Of a stretch of DNA of 64,000 nucleotides, positions 23,152 to 37,514 are shown in pieces. The notes under the pieces are model-generated. The model searched no databases. It was not told the origin of the DNA and worked only from the letters and a program-made list of their open reading frames with translations. The stretch lies in the NCBI RefSeq assembly GCF_025148285.1, contig NZ_CP102268.1, positions 2,211,001-2,275,000 on the forward strand, written 5' to 3'. The number at the start of each line of letters is the position of its first letter. The stretch's first letter is position 1. The stretch is from Marvinbryantia formatexigens DSM 14469. GTDB lineage: Bacteria > Bacillota > Clostridia > Lachnospirales > Lachnospiraceae. The position numbers were made by a program, and so were the translations under genes.

Positions 23152-24480
23152 ATGAAAGGAAAAAAAGTTTTAGGTCTGATGCTTGCAGCGGCGCTTTCGG
23201 CGGCATGTGCGGTGCCGGTCGGAGCAGAGGAAACAGGGGACAATCTCAGCGGTGAAATTACATTCTGGCACTCATTCACCCAGGGCGTCCGCATGGAGGC
23301 TGTGCAGGATGCGGCAGCCAAATTTATGGAATTGCATCCGGATGTTAAAATTAACATTGAAACAATGTCGTGGAGCGATTTCAAGACAAAATGGAATGCG
23401 GGCATTACCACGGGCGATTTGCCGGACATGAGCACGACCTGCGGAACTGCCGAGGTTGCGGAGCTTGTCAATGCGGGAATCATCCAGCCGATGGATGAAA
23501 CGATAGATGCTGTCGGACGCGACCGCTTCTCCGATACGGTGCTTGACGAGCTGAGCTATGAGGGCGCTACTTACGGTCTGCCGTACTATTCTCACGCGCA
23601 GGTGATGTGGTACCGTTCCGATTTGCTGGAAGCGGCGGGACTGGAGGTGCCGACCACCTGGGATGAGCTTTACGATGCCGCTGTTGCGCTTACGGATGCG
23701 GAAAACGGGCAGTACGGCTGTGCGGTTTCCCTGAGCACGGAGGACTTTATCGGAACGCGTTATCTGAACTTCTATGTCCGTTCGGGCGGCGGCAGCCTGC
23801 TGAACGACGACCTAACAGCGAACTTTACAAGCGACCTTGCCATCGAGGGAATCAAATACTGGGTAAAGATGTTTGAAAACTGCTCTCCGGCGGAGGCAAT
23901 CAACTACGGTATCAATGACCACGCAATGCTGTATTACCAGGGCATCACGGCGTTTGACTTTAATTCGGGCTTCCAGATTGGCGGGGTGCAGACAAACCGT
24001 GAGGACCTCACAGAATACATTTCCTGCGCAGATTTGCCGAAAATCAATGCGGATGACGAATATTACAGTGCGGAGGCATCCCATATCCCGCTTGTAATTT
24101 ATAACAGTACGGAGCATACGGACATCTGCGAGGCGTTTATCGAATTTTTGCTGGAGGAAGATAATTATCTGGAATTCCTCAGCGCGGTTCCGGTAGGAAT
24201 GCTGCCCTCCATCAGCGGTATTGCGGATACGGAAGCATACAAGGCGGATGCGACGCGCCAGCAGTTCGCGGAGGAAGAGGCAGTCATCACCAAAGCAATG
24301 CAGAACGGCACGGCGATTGGATTTGAGCACGGACTGAGCGCGCAGGCGGGACTTCTGACCAGCAACGGTATTATAGAGACGATGTTCCAGGATATTATTG
24401 TAAACGGAACGGATGTTGAGACAGCCGCGCAGAATGCAGAAGACCAGATGAATGAGCTGTTTGAAACTATGATAGGATAA
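23152..24480 (+). CDS. Sugar ABC transporter substrate-binding protein
   Basis: A 442-residue exported solute-binding family 1 protein. The leader MKGKKVLGLMLAAALSAACA ends in a possible lipobox LSAAC, or alternatively is cut after VGA. Mature features include GEITFWHSFTQGVRMEAVQD, DLPDMSTTCGTAEVAELVNAG and YGLPYYSHAQVMWYRSDLLE, as in oligosaccharide and sugar-acid binding proteins. It is separated from its permeases by a terminator-like hairpin, which would give the binding protein a higher transcript level. The ligand is unknown; the neighbouring dehydrogenase and esterase suggest a plant-derived sugar or sugar derivative. Confidence 0.9.
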   Translation: MKGKKVLGLMLAAALSAACAVPVGAEETGDNLSGEITFWHSFTQGVRMEAVQDAAAKFMELHPDVKINIETMSWSDFKTKWNAGITTGDLPDMSTTCGTAEVAELVNAGIIQPMDETIDAVGRDRFSDTVLDELSYEGATYGLPYYSHAQVMWYRSDLLEAAGLEVPTTWDELYDAAVALTDAENGQYGCAVSLSTEDFIGTRYLNFYVRSGGGSLLNDDLTANFTSDLAIEGIKYWVKMFENCSPAEAINYGINDHAMLYYQGITAFDFNSGFQIGGVQTNREDLTEYISCADLPKINADDEYYSAEASHIPLVIYNSTEHTDICEAFIEFLLEEDNYLEFLSAVPVGMLPSISGIADTEAYKADATRQQFAEEEAVITKAMQNGTAIGFEHGLSAQAGLLTSNGIIETMFQDIIVNGTDVETAAQNAEDQMNELFETMIG

Positions 24481-27833: not shown

Positions 27834-28886
27834 ATGAACAAAAAAATTTTAACAGCAGCTCTCGCAGCTACGATGCTGGCAGGTCTTGGACTTACCGCTG
27901 GTGCAGAAGGTGAAACGATTGGCGTTGCAATGCCGACACAGGACCTTCAGAGATGGAACCAGGACGGCGAAAACATGAAGGCTCAGCTGGAAGAGAAAGG
28001 CTACGTAGTAGACCTTCAGTATGCAGGAAATGATTCCGCTACACAGGCTTCCCAGATCGAGAACATGATCGCTAACGGCGACCAGCTTCTGGTTGTTGCT
28101 TCCATCGACGGCGACTCCCTTGGAACCGTTCTTGCGCAGGCAAAAGAAGCAGGCATCCCGGTTATCGCATATGACCGTCTGATCATGAACACGGATGCAG
28201 TTTCCTACTATGCAACCTTCGATAACTACCTGGTAGGTAAGACACAGGGTGAATTCCTTGTAGACGCTCTGGATCTGGAGAACCAGGATGGACCGTTCAA
28301 CCTGGAAATGGTAACAGGCGATCCGGGCGACAACAACGTAAACTTCTTCTTCGGCGGCGCTATGGACGTTCTTCAGCCGTACATCGATGCAGGCAAGCTG
28401 GTTGTTCCGTCTGGTCAGATGACAAAAGATGAAGTAGCTACCCTTAACTGGGCAACCGACGCTGCACAGTCCAGATTCGAGAACATCCTGTCCTCCAACT
28501 ATGCAGACGGCACGACTCTTCATGCAGTGCTTGCTTCCAACGACTCCACAGCACTTGGCGTTGTGAATGCTCTGGCAGCTAACTACACTGGCGAGTACCC
28601 GATCATTACCGGTCAGGACTGCGATATCGCAAACGTTCCGCACATCGTTGATGGCACACAGGCTATGTCCGTATTCAAGGATACCCGTGCTCTGGCATCC
28701 AAGGTTGTTGAAATGGTTGACGCTATCATCACAGGAGCTGAGGTTCCGGTAAATGATACTGAGACATATGACAACGGCACAGGCGTTATCCCGTCATTCC
28801 TTTGCGAACCGACAGCAGTTACCGCTGATAATTACAAAGAGATTCTGATTGATTCCGGTTACTACACAGAGGATCAGATTCAGTAA
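27834..28886 (+). CDS. Monosaccharide ABC transporter binding protein (ChvE type)
   Basis: A 350-residue exported protein of the periplasmic binding protein type 1 (ribose/xylose) fold. The signal peptide ends near LTAGAEGE. The ligand-site pattern is IGVAMPTQDLQRWNQDGENM at the mature N-terminus, VIAYDRLIMNTDAVSYYATF near residue 110, and ASNDSTALGVVNAL and TGQDCDIANV later. It is most like the multiple-sugar binding proteins ChvE and XylF, which bind xylose, arabinose, glucose or galactose. The dense use of a few codons suggests very high expression. It is followed by a hairpin and then by its ATPase and permease. Confidence 0.92.
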   Translation: MNKKILTAALAATMLAGLGLTAGAEGETIGVAMPTQDLQRWNQDGENMKAQLEEKGYVVDLQYAGNDSATQASQIENMIANGDQLLVVASIDGDSLGTVLAQAKEAGIPVIAYDRLIMNTDAVSYYATFDNYLVGKTQGEFLVDALDLENQDGPFNLEMVTGDPGDNNVNFFFGGAMDVLQPYIDAGKLVVPSGQMTKDEVATLNWATDAAQSRFENILSSNYADGTTLHAVLASNDSTALGVVNALAANYTGEYPIITGQDCDIANVPHIVDGTQAMSVFKDTRALASKVVEMVDAIITGAEVPVNDTETYDNGTGVIPSFLCEPTAVTADNYKEILIDSGYYTEDQIQ

Positions 28887-31962: not shown

Positions 31963-32829
31963 ATGAGAAAGATGACAGGTACTATTTTAGCAGCAGGTAT
32001 GGCAGCAGCTCTGGCAGCAGCTCCGGTAATGGCAGCAGATATCAACGAGGCAAATATTTCCGTAATTTCCCGTGAGGATGGTTCGGGTACAAGAGGAGCA
32101 TTCATCGAGCTGTTTGGCGTAGAAGAGAAGAATGACGCAGGCGAGAAGGTAGATAACACCACCGTAGATGCAAGCGTTACAAACAACACCGCAGTTATGA
32201 TGTCTACCGTAGCAGGAAATACCTACGCAATCGGATATATTTCCCTTGGTTCTCTGAACGACACCGTAAAGGCAGTAAAGATCGACGGCGCAGAAGCAAC
32301 TGTAGAAAACATCAAATCGGGCGAATACAAGGTTTCCAGACCGTTCAACATCGCAACGAAGGATGAAGTAAGCGAAGTAGCACAGGATTTCATCAACTAT
32401 ATTCTCAGCCCGGAAGGACAGGCAGTTGTTGAAGAAAACGGTTATATCGCAATCGACGACGTAGCAGATTATACCAGCACAGGAGCAGAGGGCAAGGTAG
32501 TTGTTGCAGGTTCCTCTTCCGTAACACCGGTAATGGAGAAGCTGAAAGAAGCATATGCGGAAGTAAACCCGAACGCAGAGGTTGAAATCCAGACAAGCGA
32601 TTCTACAACAGGTATGACCTCCACAATCGACGGTATCTGCGATATCGGTATGGCATCCAGAGAACTGAAAGACAGCGAAACGGAAGCAGGTCTGACATCT
32701 ACCCAGATTGCAATCGATGGTATTGCGGTAATTGTAAACAACGAAAATCCGGTTGAGGATCTGACCTCTGAGCAGGTAAAGAGCATCTACACAGGCGAGA
32801 CAACTGTATGGGGCGACGTACTTCAGTAA
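31963..32829 (+). CDS. pstS: Phosphate-binding protein PstS with permuted domain order
   Basis: A 288-residue exported binding protein with a signal peptide ending near APVMAADI. The first half reads NISVISREDGSGTRGAFIEL, TNNTAVMMSTVAGNTYAIGY and VSRPFNIATKDEV, ending with FINYILSPEGQAVVEENGYI; in ordinary PstS these belong to the second half. The second half reads KVVVAGSSSVTPVMEKLKEAYAEV, then the Ser/Thr-rich DSTTGMTSTIDGICDIGMASREL and AIDGIAVIVNNENPVEDLT, normally the N-terminal half. The protein therefore looks circularly permuted, with both phosphate-contacting loops (SREDGSGTR and GSSSVTPVM) retained. It is the first gene of the pst operon. Confidence 0.87.
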   Translation: MRKMTGTILAAGMAAALAAAPVMAADINEANISVISREDGSGTRGAFIELFGVEEKNDAGEKVDNTTVDASVTNNTAVMMSTVAGNTYAIGYISLGSLNDTVKAVKIDGAEATVENIKSGEYKVSRPFNIATKDEVSEVAQDFINYILSPEGQAVVEENGYIAIDDVADYTSTGAEGKVVVAGSSSVTPVMEKLKEAYAEVNPNAEVEIQTSDSTTGMTSTIDGICDIGMASRELKDSETEAGLTSTQIAIDGIAVIVNNENPVEDLTSEQVKSIYTGETTVWGDVLQ

Positions 32830-32938
32830 AGTAAGGAACGGACGGTTACTGCGGGCAAAGTAAGCAGTAACACCGGACGGGGTACTGCAAGGCAGGCTGC
32901 ATACGGTGCCCCCGAAGAAAAAGGTCGGGAGAACGATT

Positions 32939-33802
32939 ATGAAGCAAGGCTTACTTAAAGAAAAAATTATGCAGGCGGTGTTTTTTGTAGCCGCCTGCGC
33001 CTCCATCCTGGCGGTGGCGCTGATTTGTATTTTCCTGTTCGCGAATGGCGTCCCGGCGATGGCAAAAATTGGTTTATTTGATTTTCTGACAGGACAGACA
33101 TGGAAGCCGGGCAACAACATTTACGGTATCCTGCCGATGATTCTCGGCAGTATTTATGTGACAGCAGGAGCCGCGCTTATCGGTGTGCCGATCGGCATTC
33201 TGACGGCGGTCTTTATGGCGGAGTATTGCCCGAAGCAGATTTATAAACCGCTGAAAACCGCGACGGAGCTTCTTGCGGGAATCCCCTCGATTGTATATGG
33301 CTTTTTTGGACTGGTTGTGCTGGTCCCGGCTATACGGGCGCTGTTTCCGACGAAAACGGACGGCATGAGTATACTGACTGCGGCAATTCTGCTTGGCATG
33401 ATGATTCTTCCGACGATTATCGGTGTAAGCGAGGCGGCGCTCCGCGCAGTGCCGCGCAGCTACTATGAGGGTGCTCTGGCGCTTGGCGCCACAAAAGAAA
33501 GATGTATCTTTTCCGTAATGCTTCCGGCGGCAAAATCCGGTGTTATCGCAGCGGTAGTGCTCGGAATCGGACGTGCGGTCGGCGAGACGATGGCGGTTAT
33601 GATGATTGCCGGAAACCAGCCGCGTATGCCAAAAGGCGTTCTGCAGGGCGTGCGTACGCTGACGACAAACATTGTGCTGGAAATGGGCTATGCTACCGAT
33701 TTGCACAGAGAGGCGCTGATTGCTACGGCTGTGGTGCTGTTCGTGTTCATATTAATTATCAACTTTACGGTAGCGTTTTTAAACCGGAAGGCAGAAAATT
33801 AG
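32939..33802 (+). CDS. pstC: Phosphate ABC transporter permease PstC
   Basis: A 287-residue permease started at 32939 behind GGGAGAACG; an upstream frame extension is not supported by a site. Six helices are predicted. Typical PstC segments are FDFLTGQTWKPGNNIYGILP, AGIPSIVYGFFGLVVLVP and, in the coupling region, ALGATKERCIFSVMLPAAKSG. With PstA it forms the phosphate channel. The 129-bp gap to pstA is filled by a 15-bp tandem repeat. Confidence 0.93.
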   Translation: MKQGLLKEKIMQAVFFVAACASILAVALICIFLFANGVPAMAKIGLFDFLTGQTWKPGNNIYGILPMILGSIYVTAGAALIGVPIGILTAVFMAEYCPKQIYKPLKTATELLAGIPSIVYGFFGLVVLVPAIRALFPTKTDGMSILTAAILLGMMILPTIIGVSEAALRAVPRSYYEGALALGATKERCIFSVMLPAAKSGVIAAVVLGIGRAVGETMAVMMIAGNQPRMPKGVLQGVRTLTTNIVLEMGYATDLHREALIATAVVLFVFILIINFTVAFLNRKAEN

Positions 33803-33931: not shown

Positions 33932-34747
33932 ATGAAGAGTAAGATACAGAAATTTTTTGTGATGCTGTCGGCGGGAATTACATTTGCGGTGCTTCTGTTT
34001 CTGATAGCATACATATTAATAAAGGGCATTCCGAATCTGAAGCCATCACTTTTTGCATGGAACTATACCTCGGAAAATGTATCGATGCTGCCGGCGATTA
34101 TCAATACAATTTATATGACGGCGCTGGCGCTTCTGATTGCAGTGCCGCTGGGCATCTTTTCCGCGATTTATCTGGTGGAATACGCCAGCAAAAAAAATCC
34201 GTTTATCAATGTTATCCGTCTGACGACGGAAACGCTGTCCGGTATTCCTTCTATCGTATACGGATTGTTCGGTATGCTGTTTTTCGTAACAGCGCTGAAA
34301 TGGGGACTGTCTCTTCTTTCGGGCGCGTTTACCCTTTCCATTATGGTGCTCCCCTCTATTATGAGAACGACGGAGGAGGCGCTGAAGGCGGTGCCGGATT
34401 CCTACCGGGAGGGCAGCTTCGGACTGGGCGCCGGAAAGCTGCGCACCGTATTTCGTATTGTGCTTCCGGCAGCGGTGCCGGGTATCCTGTCCGGTGTCAT
34501 TCTGGCAATCGGAAGAATCGTCGGGGAAACGGCGGCGCTTATTTATACGGCAGGAACCGTGGCGGATGTGGCGGACAGCATTTTTGATTCCGGGCGTACC
34601 CTTGCCGTACATATGTACAATCTCTCCAGCGAGGGACTGCATGTGAACGAATCCTATGCGACGGCGGTCGTGCTGCTGGTACTGGTAGTTGCTATCAACA
34701 TGCTGTCGAACTTTGTTGCAAGACGCCTTGGCAGTCCGACAAAATAA
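33932..34747 (+). CDS. pstA: Phosphate ABC transporter permease PstA
   Basis: A 271-residue permease with six predicted helices. PstA features are YTSENVSMLPAIINTIYMTA, TETLSGIPSIVYGLFGMLFF and the coupling motif ALKAVPDSYREGSFGLGAGK. It starts behind AGGAGAGTATA. A 33-bp-unit repeat array separates it from pstB. Confidence 0.93.
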   Translation: MKSKIQKFFVMLSAGITFAVLLFLIAYILIKGIPNLKPSLFAWNYTSENVSMLPAIINTIYMTALALLIAVPLGIFSAIYLVEYASKKNPFINVIRLTTETLSGIPSIVYGLFGMLFFVTALKWGLSLLSGAFTLSIMVLPSIMRTTEEALKAVPDSYREGSFGLGAGKLRTVFRIVLPAAVPGILSGVILAIGRIVGETAALIYTAGTVADVADSIFDSGRTLAVHMYNLSSEGLHVNESYATAVVLLVLVVAINMLSNFVARRLGSPTK

Positions 34748-34894: not shown

Positions 34895-35650
34895 ATGAAC
34901 GCAATTATAGAATCCAGAGATTTGAAATTATGGTACGGAGACCATCAGGTACTGAAATCCATCACGATGGATATACCGGAGCATGAAATCACAGCGCTGA
35001 TTGGACCATCCGGCTGCGGAAAATCGACTTTTTTAAAGACGCTGAACCGCATGAATGATTTGGTCGGAAATGTGCGCATTACCGGCGAAGTGAATTATAA
35101 CGGAAAAAATATCTATGCTCCCGACGTGGACGTGACAAAGCTGCGCAAGGACATCGGCATGGTTTTCCAGAAGCCCAATCCCTTCCCGATGAGCATTTAT
35201 GAAAATGTTGCATACGGACCGAAAACGCATGGAATCCGCTCCAAGGCAAAGCTGGATGAAATTGTGGAGGAATCCCTGAAGGCATCGGCGCTCTGGGAGG
35301 AGGTAAAGGACCGTCTGAAAACCTCAGCCCTGGGACTGTCCGGCGGACAGCAGCAGCGTCTCTGTATTGCCCGCGCAATCAGCGTGCAGCCGAGCGTGAT
35401 TCTGATGGATGAGAGTACCGCGTCCCTCGACCCGATAAGTACCGGAAAAATCGAGGATCTGGTAATGGAGCTGAAATCGCAGTACACAGTCATCATGGTT
35501 ACACATAATATGCAGCAGGCGGTGCGTATTTCCGATTACTGCGCGTTCTTCCTGCTGGGCGAGCTGGTGGAATTCGGCAAAACAAAGGAAATGTTTGCAA
35601 AACCGCAGAACAAAAAGACAGAGGAATACATCACCGGAAGATTCGGCTGA
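34895..35650 (+). CDS. pstB: Phosphate ABC transporter ATPase PstB
   Basis: A 251-residue ABC ATPase. Walker A is [20 protein letters not shown], typical of PstB, the signature is [17 protein letters not shown], and Walker B is [16 protein letters not shown]. The motif [20 protein letters not shown] is a PstB hallmark. GAGGAGTAAC precedes the start. No phoU follows: the next plus-strand element is a terminator and the next gene is convergent. Confidence 0.95.
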
Positions 35651-35772: not shown

Positions 35773-36843
35773 CTACCGCTCAGGCTGATGCTTTGGCAGA
35801 CGGACGGTAAAGGTGGTTCTTTTGTTCTCGCTTGTCACATAAATATCCCCGTTGTGCAGCTCAGCAACCTTTTTCACGATAGCCAGTCCGATGCCGTTTC
35901 CCTCCGAGGAATGCGATTCGTCCGCCTGGTAGAATTTGTTGAAAATCCGGTTGAGGCTTTCCTCCGGGATTTCTGTGCCGCGGTTGGAGATTGAAACAAA
36001 AAGGTCATCTGCTTTTTCTGTGATGTGAAAGGAAATCAGATTGCCCGGCTCTGAGAACTTCACGGCATTATCAATGAGATTTACCCATATCTGTTTTAAA
36101 AGCTCTTCATTTGCCTCTATCGTATATTCCTGGAAATCGAGGTCCGGCTCCAGGTCCTTCTGCGTCCATTTCTCCGCCAGCAGAAGAACGGTCGAGCGTA
36201 TCTGCTCCGATAAATTATAAGATGTAACATTTGTCAGAATCGTCTGGTTTTCCACTTTTGTCAGATTTAACATATTGGTCGCCATTTCGGAAAGGCGCAG
36301 CGCTTCCTCCTCGATGACGGCGAGATACTCCTCTTTTTGCGCCTCCGAAAGATTTCCGCGCCGCAGAAGCTTTGCAAAACCGGCGATGGAGACGATGGGC
36401 GTCTTAAATTCATGAGAAAAATTGTTGATAAAATCGCCGCGCAGCATTTCGGTGTGTTCAAGTTCTTCTGCTGCGGAATTAAAGCTCTTTTCAATCTCCC
36501 GGAAAACAGAATGCCTGGATATGGGGCGCGAAAAATGAATCCGGGTGTGGAAATCTCCGCTTGCCAGCCGGTTGAGCTGATTGATGAGCTGATAAAATGG
36601 CCGCAGGGAAATCCTTCCGGTCAGCAGGGTAAACAGGACGCCAATAAGGGTGCTGGCTATCGGGAGCAGCAGGAATATGGTGCCGGCTTCCGGGCGTCCG
36701 CCGACGGTTTTGATGATGCCGAGCCGAATCATGAGGTACACGAGCAGGCCGGCAAGGATTCCGGCAACGGCTATAATGATAAATACAAACAGGGAGACCA
36801 GTACGGTGAGAGCAAAGCGCCGTCTGCGCTCTTCTTTTTTCAT
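35773..36843 (-). CDS. Sensor histidine kinase with short extracellular loop
   Basis: A 356-residue kinase. Two membrane helices near residues 10-45 and 50-75 are joined by a short loop only, indicating sensing within the membrane or through a partner such as an ABC transporter. A HAMP segment (LASGDFHTRIHFSRP) precedes the phospho-acceptor His in FSHEFKTPIVSIAGFAKLL. The ATPase domain has the N-box NLIDNAVKFSEPG and GNGIGLAIVKKVAELHNG. Its start overlaps the response regulator stop by four bases. The divergent ABC gene at 37739 is the likely target or sensing partner, as in antibiotic-peptide resistance modules; a role in phosphate sensing is possible because pst is adjacent, but the genes are convergent. 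Confidence 0.9.
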   Translation of the reverse strand: MKKEERRRRFALTVLVSLFVFIIIAVAGILAGLLVYLMIRLGIIKTVGGRPEAGTIFLLLPIASTLIGVLFTLLTGRISLRPFYQLINQLNRLASGDFHTRIHFSRPISRHSVFREIEKSFNSAAEELEHTEMLRGDFINNFSHEFKTPIVSIAGFAKLLRRGNLSEAQKEEYLAVIEEEALRLSEMATNMLNLTKVENQTILTNVTSYNLSEQIRSTVLLLAEKWTQKDLEPDLDFQEYTIEANEELLKQIWVNLIDNAVKFSEPGNLISFHITEKADDLFVSISNRGTEIPEESLNRIFNKFYQADESHSSEGNGIGLAIVKKVAELHNGDIYVTSENKRTTFTVRLPKHQPER

Positions 36844-37514
36844 ACCTTTTTCACCGCCTTATATCCAAGACCACGCACGGACTTTATTTCAAATTCTTCC
36901 CATCCCTCAAAACGCCGGCGGAGCCTGCCGACATGGACGGTCACGGTCTCCCAGCCCGTTTCGCTGTCCGAACCCCATATTTCGTCCATGAGCTGGATGC
37001 GCGTGAAAATCTGCCCCGGATAGGAGAGCAGCTTGTACAGCAGCAGAAATTCCTTTTGGGGAAGCACCTGCGTTTCGCCTTTTCTGGACACCGTAAAAGA
37101 ATTGTAATCCAGCGTCACGTCTCCGATCACGATTTTGCGCTCGCTGACGATCTGTGCCCGGCGCAGCAGCGCTTTGATGCGCAGCAGCATTTTTTCCTCG
37201 TCAATCGGCTTGGTGATATAATCGTCGGTTCCCACAAGAAAGCCCTGCTTTTCATCTGCAGCATCCTGCTTTGCCGTCACCATAAGGATGGGGAGCGCAT
37301 CGTTCGTCTCCCGGATAGTCTTTGTAAATTCGTAGCCGTCCATCTTAGGCATCATAATATCCAGCACGACAAGGTCAATATGCTCCTTATCCAGCACATC
37401 GAGCGCCGTCTCTCCGTTATCCGCCGTCGTTACCGTATAGCCCGCTTCCTCCAGAATCGCCTGCAGAAGCATCCGGGTATGCTTATCATCATCAACCACA
37501 AGAATATGAAACAT
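36840..37514 (-). CDS. OmpR-family response regulator
   Basis: A 224-residue regulator. The receiver domain has VVDDDKHTR, phosphoacceptor Asp in LVVLDIMMPKMDG (about residue 53) and Lys in YITKPIDE. The winged-helix output domain contains LPQKEFLLLYKLLSYPGQIF and TVTVHVGRLRRRFEGW. It is the first gene of a two-gene operon with the kinase and is divergent from the MacB-like ABC gene. A near-perfect inverted repeat at 37650-37679 in the shared region may be its binding site. Confidence 0.92.
   Translation of the reverse strand: MFHILVVDDDKHTRMLLQAILEEAGYTVTTADNGETALDVLDKEHIDLVVLDIMMPKMDGYEFTKTIRETNDALPILMVTAKQDAADEKQGFLVGTDDYITKPIDEEKMLLRIKALLRRAQIVSERKIVIGDVTLDYNSFTVSRKGETQVLPQKEFLLLYKLLSYPGQIFTRIQLMDEIWGSDSETGWETVTVHVGRLRRRFEGWEEFEIKSVRGLGYKAVKKV

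Follow-up and report, generated by a model that had tools for sequence, protein, structure and literature searches.

The window, a stretch of 64,000 nucleotides of Marvinbryantia formatexigens DSM 14469 DNA, holds on its forward strand, at 31963–32829, an open reading frame that starts with ATG and encodes a PstS of 288 amino acids plus stop, recognized from the reading frame together with profile and PDB sequence matches as a circularly permuted phosphate-binding protein. It opens with a signal peptide (residues 1–24, 31963–32034) that ends in AAAPVMA, is followed by AD and lacks a lipobox cysteine, with the cleavage site placed by eye and the N-termini of related proteins compared. Profile, PDB sequence and half-domain matches place the C-half of canonical PstS first (residues 30–166, 32050–32460) and the N-half second (residues 175–286, 32485–32820), and the gap between the half-domain matches marks the new linker between the former C- and N-termini at about residues 167–174 (32461–32484). 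Each half carries a loop motif, SREDGSGTR in the first (residues 36–44, 32068–32094) and GSSSVTP in the second (residues 183–189, 32509–32529), which we take to serve in phosphate binding. Both motifs, whose retention had been claimed on first inspection, have an invariant core in 60 aligned permuted proteins, comprising R37, E38, G40, S41, G42, T43 and R44 in the first and G183, S184, S185, S186 and P189 in the second; a divergent permuted PstS (L091) differs at some core loop residues.

Permuted pstS is followed on the same strand by pstC (permease, 32906–33802), pstA (permease, 33932–34747) and pstB (ATPase, 34895–35650), which score above the cut-offs of TIGR02138, TIGR00974 and TIGR00972, respectively, so that the genes of a Pst phosphate importer adjoin it in the normal pst operon context that the initial annotation had described. 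Convergent to these, on the reverse strand, lie a sensor histidine kinase (35773–36843; PnpS best-scoring, below cut-off) and a response regulator (36840–37514; MtrA and PhoB best-scoring, below cut-offs). A phoU match above cut-off sits away from the pst operon, and a scan for promoters and terminators returned matches at chance level. The genome contains one match to permuted PstS, and its two TIGR02136 matches are the two halves of this one gene. The operon arrangement recurs elsewhere: pstC lies at most 600 nucleotides downstream in 78 of the 80 named loci with a frame in C–N order (the best 80 of 469).

The swapped order is seen first in the family profiles, as Pfam PBP_like_2 (PF12849) and NCBIfam TIGR02136 each match the protein in two stretches. 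PBP_like_2 scores 117.5 against a gathering threshold of 27. TIGR02136 reaches E 1.3e-56 over both stretches, indicating homology of both halves, and a whole-protein score of 191.9 bits against a cut-off of 206.6, a shortfall such as the swapped order would cause. In its top stretch, protein residues 172–286 correspond to profile positions 32–155 of 295; the first PstS half thus comes second, and the order of N-half before C-half is absent. Searching PDB sequences with phmmer gave the same picture among the five alignments shown: 4q8r, 4gd5, 1twy and 4exl each match as two pieces in exchanged order (with 4q8r, residues 178–285 of the protein pair with chain residues 5–112 and 28–162 with 116–243), and 4h1x alone is colinear (30–285 with 9–263, E 2.5e-63). 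The initial annotation had read the second PstS half as coming first and the first half second, naming the strings SREDGSGTRGAF (residues 36–47), SPEGQAVV, GKVVVAGSSSVTPVMEKL and AVIVNN; these are present in the translation and, together with the swapped two-piece matches, confirm that the 288-residue PstS is a circular permutation, with the C-half (residues ~30–166) before the N-half (~175–286). Compared to canonical PstS (for example 4q8r, which is Clostridium perfringens PBP-1, and 4gd5; TIGR02136), the halves are 42–46% identical in structure alignments and share the same loops and operon, but stand in the opposite order, and the N-terminus, on lobe 1 in the canonical protein, would lie on lobe 2 in the permuted one.

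PDB entry 4H1X, released in 2012, is SP_2084 of Streptococcus pneumoniae TIGR4, named "PstS 2". An AlphaFold2 model of residues 26–288 of the M. formatexigens protein, computed from an alignment of 60 permuted proteins (diverse among the best-scoring, 58–74% identical to the query), is confident and two-lobed (mean pLDDT 95.4, pTM 0.87), and 4h1x is its best PDB match by far, with Foldseek TM values of 0.95/0.97 and, in VIA-align, Z 36.4 and an rmsd of 1.1 Å over 256 residues at 44% identity. The fold prediction suggested as a check therefore returns a fold near-identical to a solved one, and the full-length colinear sequence match, together with the same fold and connectivity in the predicted model, makes this a PstS of the 4H1X type. 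The two share the permuted order, colinear over residues 30–285, but S. pneumoniae also has a canonical-order PstS 1 (4exl), whereas in M. formatexigens the permuted protein is the only match. The canonical phosphate-binding chains among the listed structure matches align with the model over 116–138 residues, one half each (1twy_A with model residues 1–139, Z 12.5 over 138 residues; 9l8j_B with 148–263, Z 9.0 over 116 residues). Compared half by half with PstS structures, as had likewise been proposed, each half of the protein thus finds its canonical counterpart, with 4q8r matched in swapped pieces.

It had further been proposed that the permutation rewires the hinge strands that join the two lobes. 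Residues 126–259 (32338–32739), predicted alone, form a compact unit (pLDDT 94.3, pTM 0.88), and from this fragment prediction and its structure matches the stretch would make up lobe 1 by itself: its alignment with 4h1x spans 133 residues (Z 23.4, rmsd 2.5), and 76 of its residues (53–128 of the fragment model) lie on 4q8r residues 5–80 at 0.6 Å. Because this stretch is compact and superposes on 4q8r, the cut would fall inside lobe 2, with the old termini joined within lobe 1. Lobes and crossovers were placed using what we take to be the domain limits of canonical PstS; on these limits the model supports, but does not prove, that lobe 1 is continuous in permuted PstS and split in the canonical form, and that the reverse holds for lobe 2. 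The interlobe crossovers (about residues 122–132 and 245–260) are then probably the same two strands as in canonical PstS. Rewiring of the hinge hence finds no support, the outcome favoring an unchanged pair of crossovers, and the permutation appears instead to exchange the continuous and the split lobe and to shift the N-terminus from lobe 1 to lobe 2.

Permuted PstS recurs well beyond the window. Full-length copies in three congeners are 83–88% identical, which places the permuted order beyond chance. In a set of 40 genomes (own, 7 of the genus, 16 of the family and 16 of the order) 26 have a match, near-full-length and colinear in 8, own genome included. Within the genus, three genomes (G002, G005, G006) carry the permuted and one (G007) the canonical type, so that the type of PstS varies within the genus; the remaining three (G001, G003, G004) gave no match. 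Near-full-length colinear C–N matches are present in at least 127 of 392 genomes sampled from the order (E limit 1e-20), in 73 of 391 from the class (E limit 1e-30; four further genomes with partial or broken matches only are left uncounted) and in 14 of 398 from the phylum (E limit 1e-30), where 2 more genomes carry a fused form; these three samples overlap, and the genome of the window is in all of them. The C–N frame is present in all 80 stretches from named genomes that rank highest, by likeness to the permuted query, among 469 related ones. Titles among these 80 include Roseburia inulinivorans, R. hominis, Clostridium aminobutyricum, Thermoclostridium caenicola and Streptococcus hillyeri, as well as metagenome-assembled genomes titled Phascolarctobacterium, Desulfovibrionaceae (two) and Bacteroides (one, the title possibly wrong). 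The suggestion that such proteins occur widely in Lachnospiraceae is thus borne out by many records labeled with that family, and the order, class and phylum samples extend it.

Several variants were encountered along the way. In five genomes two permuted pstS genes stand adjacent in tandem, each with a signal-peptide-like start (L238, L239, L240, L241, L242), and at L227:962-2329 a permuted PstS has a Cu_amine_oxidN1 domain at its N-terminus and a linker rich in proline, with no lipobox seen. The permuted PstS of the two Desulfovibrionaceae-titled metagenome-assembled genomes (L136, L168) are sisters in the quick tree described below and are without a lipobox, an absence that would fit a diderm; if the bins are clean, horizontal transfer is likely for these two.

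Half-domain profiles run over 249 loci classified 202 frames as C–N, 52 as N–C, 2 as N–C–N–C and 1 as N-half only, counts that are not frequencies, as most loci were fetched with the permuted query and some genes appear twice (176 distinct C–N proteins). The cut lies 4 or 5 residues past the last tryptophan in 167 of the 202 C–N frames, and the gap between the two half-domain matches measures 8–16 residues in 200 of them; the position of the permutation cut hardly varies.

The two N–C–N–C frames (L089 and L090, at L312:2632-4224 and L311:3850-5481) lie upstream of pstC in two genomes of one genus, G1126 and G1085, and encode proteins of 531 and 544 amino acids. They resemble permuted PstS in having an in-frame junction of a C-half with an N-half inside a pst operon, and differ from it in that a single chain holds two full canonical units, with about two residues between them. 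The units share 74–75% identity inside each gene and 78% across the two genomes when compared unit by unit, which dates the duplication before the split of G1126 and G1085. Such genes document that pst operons do undergo the fusion on which a duplication route depends. As direct ancestors of the permuted type they are unsupported: neither tree places them as sister to the permuted clade, and in the careful tree their four units form a clade of their own, apart from it. The fused proteins may be double-headed binding proteins.

For phylogeny the halves were aligned separately and joined in one order, and no root was inferred. A quick tree took 117 of 215 candidate rows, near-duplicates omitted, and a careful tree 85 of 256 rows, with divergent forms added and near-duplicates (by shared 4-mers) and the long branches L009 and L015 omitted; two of the 257 classified frames had been set aside ahead of the careful tree because their halves were short or single. 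The quick tree gathers 67 of 68 permuted rows on one branch with support 98, and the branch that joins all 68 has support 27, caused by the long row L091. The permutation could accordingly have arisen repeatedly, with divergent forms such as L091 permuted independently at a shared natural break point: L091 stands on a very long branch outside the 67-row clade, either half used alone gives a tree, with few resolved forks, that needs two changes of label rather than one, and the fused N–C–N–C genes document in-frame tandem fusion in another lineage. We hold repeated origin to be unlikely, as once intermediates are added the careful tree places all 42 of 42 permuted rows, L091 included, in one clade beside canonical rows with support 97/97, a clade present in 96% of 200 bootstrap trees. 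The phylogeny asked for in the initial annotation is therefore best read as one origin of permuted PstS from a canonical ancestor, a direction that we infer as the trees are unrooted, with later spread that appears to include transfer between lineages. The permuted gene probably arose through in-frame fusion of tandem pstS copies and subsequent loss of the outer halves.

By homology to ordinary PstS in both halves, the protein is best explained as the substrate-binding component of the Pst phosphate ABC importer. The mature chain runs from the strand before the SREDGSGTR loop to the old C-terminus, through the short linker to the old N-terminus, and on to the old midpoint, and the protein would close its lobes on phosphate and deliver it to PstCA as other PstS do. 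With the new termini on lobe 2, an N-terminal tether, if any, would hold lobe 2 instead of lobe 1. In S. pneumoniae D39 at 1 mM phosphate, according to PMC4913102, single deletion of pst1-phoU1 or pst2-phoU2 leaves phosphate uptake equal to that of the parent and double deletion, in an unencapsulated strain, lowers it by about 50%, and Pst1 is the more important at low phosphate; the string "permut" has no occurrence in the main text of that paper. With SP_2084 equated to PstS2 from the PDB names, the role of pneumococcal Pst2 in phosphate uptake supports this function for the permuted type. A change of function, toward another oxyanion or mainly toward sensing and accompanied by the shift of termini, appears very improbable: 13 genomes in the three samples have more than one permuted copy, five of these pairs adjacent, and copies may specialize, but the genome has no second match to the protein, whose gene is the first of a full pstSCAB set, the core of both loops does not vary among 60 aligned proteins, and pneumococcal Pst2 is active in phosphate uptake (PMC4913102). 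That the order is an artefact of faulty assembly, of a tandem array that was broken or of misreading, or simply the order of standard PstS, is ruled out by its recurrence in many independent assemblies, including single-contig genomes and named isolates, by the crystal structure 4H1X, and by 52 frames of the same locus set in canonical N–C order. We are highly confident in reading permuted PstS as a phosphate-binding protein of the Pst importer, with a probable single origin and probably unchanged hinge crossovers.

No lipobox cysteine was found after the signal peptide of the M. formatexigens protein or in those of L002–L004. A lipobox is present in 162 of the 176 distinct permuted proteins by a crude pattern, and in 164 after misses were read by eye; here and in the sets below, visual inspection separated misses from false hits, and a readable start was lacking at some loci. 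A tie between lipobox loss and permutation is ruled out, as most permuted proteins have a lipobox; the loss seems instead to characterize the binding proteins of the genus. Binding proteins of the genus, those at 27834–28886, 23152–24480 and 31963–32829 of the window among them, mostly have signal peptides of the ordinary kind in which no clear lipobox is seen. Of the 40 SBP_bac_8 matches in the own genome, 30 were retrieved (L251–L280), 27 with starts readable by eye; the pattern is found in 5 of the 30, L253 and L265 are lipoproteins beyond doubt and a few are ambiguous, such as L259, L272 and L268, the last being the window protein at 23152. L277 of this set is a 733-residue frame that matches SBP_bac_8 and by eye starts like a LacI-type regulator. 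For congener G002, 20 of 21 matches were fetched (within L281–L310), six with the pattern and one clear by eye (L307), and for G012, of the same family, 10 of 10 (within the same range), five with readable starts and all five of these with a lipobox. The genome of M. formatexigens, presumably a monoderm, encodes Lgt.

Natural circular permutation has precedents among binding proteins of ABC importers. TpMglB-2 (Tp0684), a glucose-binding protein for which a "Type Ic / Cluster Bc" is proposed, is likewise a natural permutant, whose homologs come chiefly from treponemes and Gram-positive bacteria, according to PMC4990184, where its authors also raise a link to membrane anchoring. It differs in having a Type I sugar-binding fold to which permutation adds a fourth hinge crossover (PMC4990184), whereas permuted PstS appears to add none. 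Natural circular permutation is also described, in PMC2395249, for a family with glycine-betaine-binding proteins of ABC importers; OpuAC and its relatives there share the general fold and have permuted members, and OpuAC entries align with the predicted PstS model over 203–216 residues (Z 9.1–9.7), but at 11–13% identity, with another ligand and in another family. The initial annotation knew of no description of permuted PstS. Our search of one open-access library, with most matches judged from their listed entries, found no text that calls PstS permuted, but a crystal structure of this very type, 4H1X, already exists. Permuted PstS is therefore a genuine form, common across its order, with a structural precedent and apparently no description in the open-access library searched.

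PstS is a textbook two-lobed binding protein, and its permuted form is present in about one-third of the sampled genomes of the order and about one-fifth of those of the class. The standard PstS model splits this form in two, and the M. formatexigens protein scores below its cut-off. With an apparently single-origin clade beside canonical relatives, and with fused tandem genes elsewhere as a possible intermediate, the duplication route can be tested directly. It is conceivable, if rather unlikely, that the permutation became fixed because transfer of the tether from lobe 1 to lobe 2 alters docking on PstC/PstA or lobe opening, in which case permuted PstS would define a distinct and spreading importer type and the fused N–C–N–C genes would be its living first step. 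Permuted PstS raises the question whether tethering one lobe rather than the other makes a difference to ABC import.
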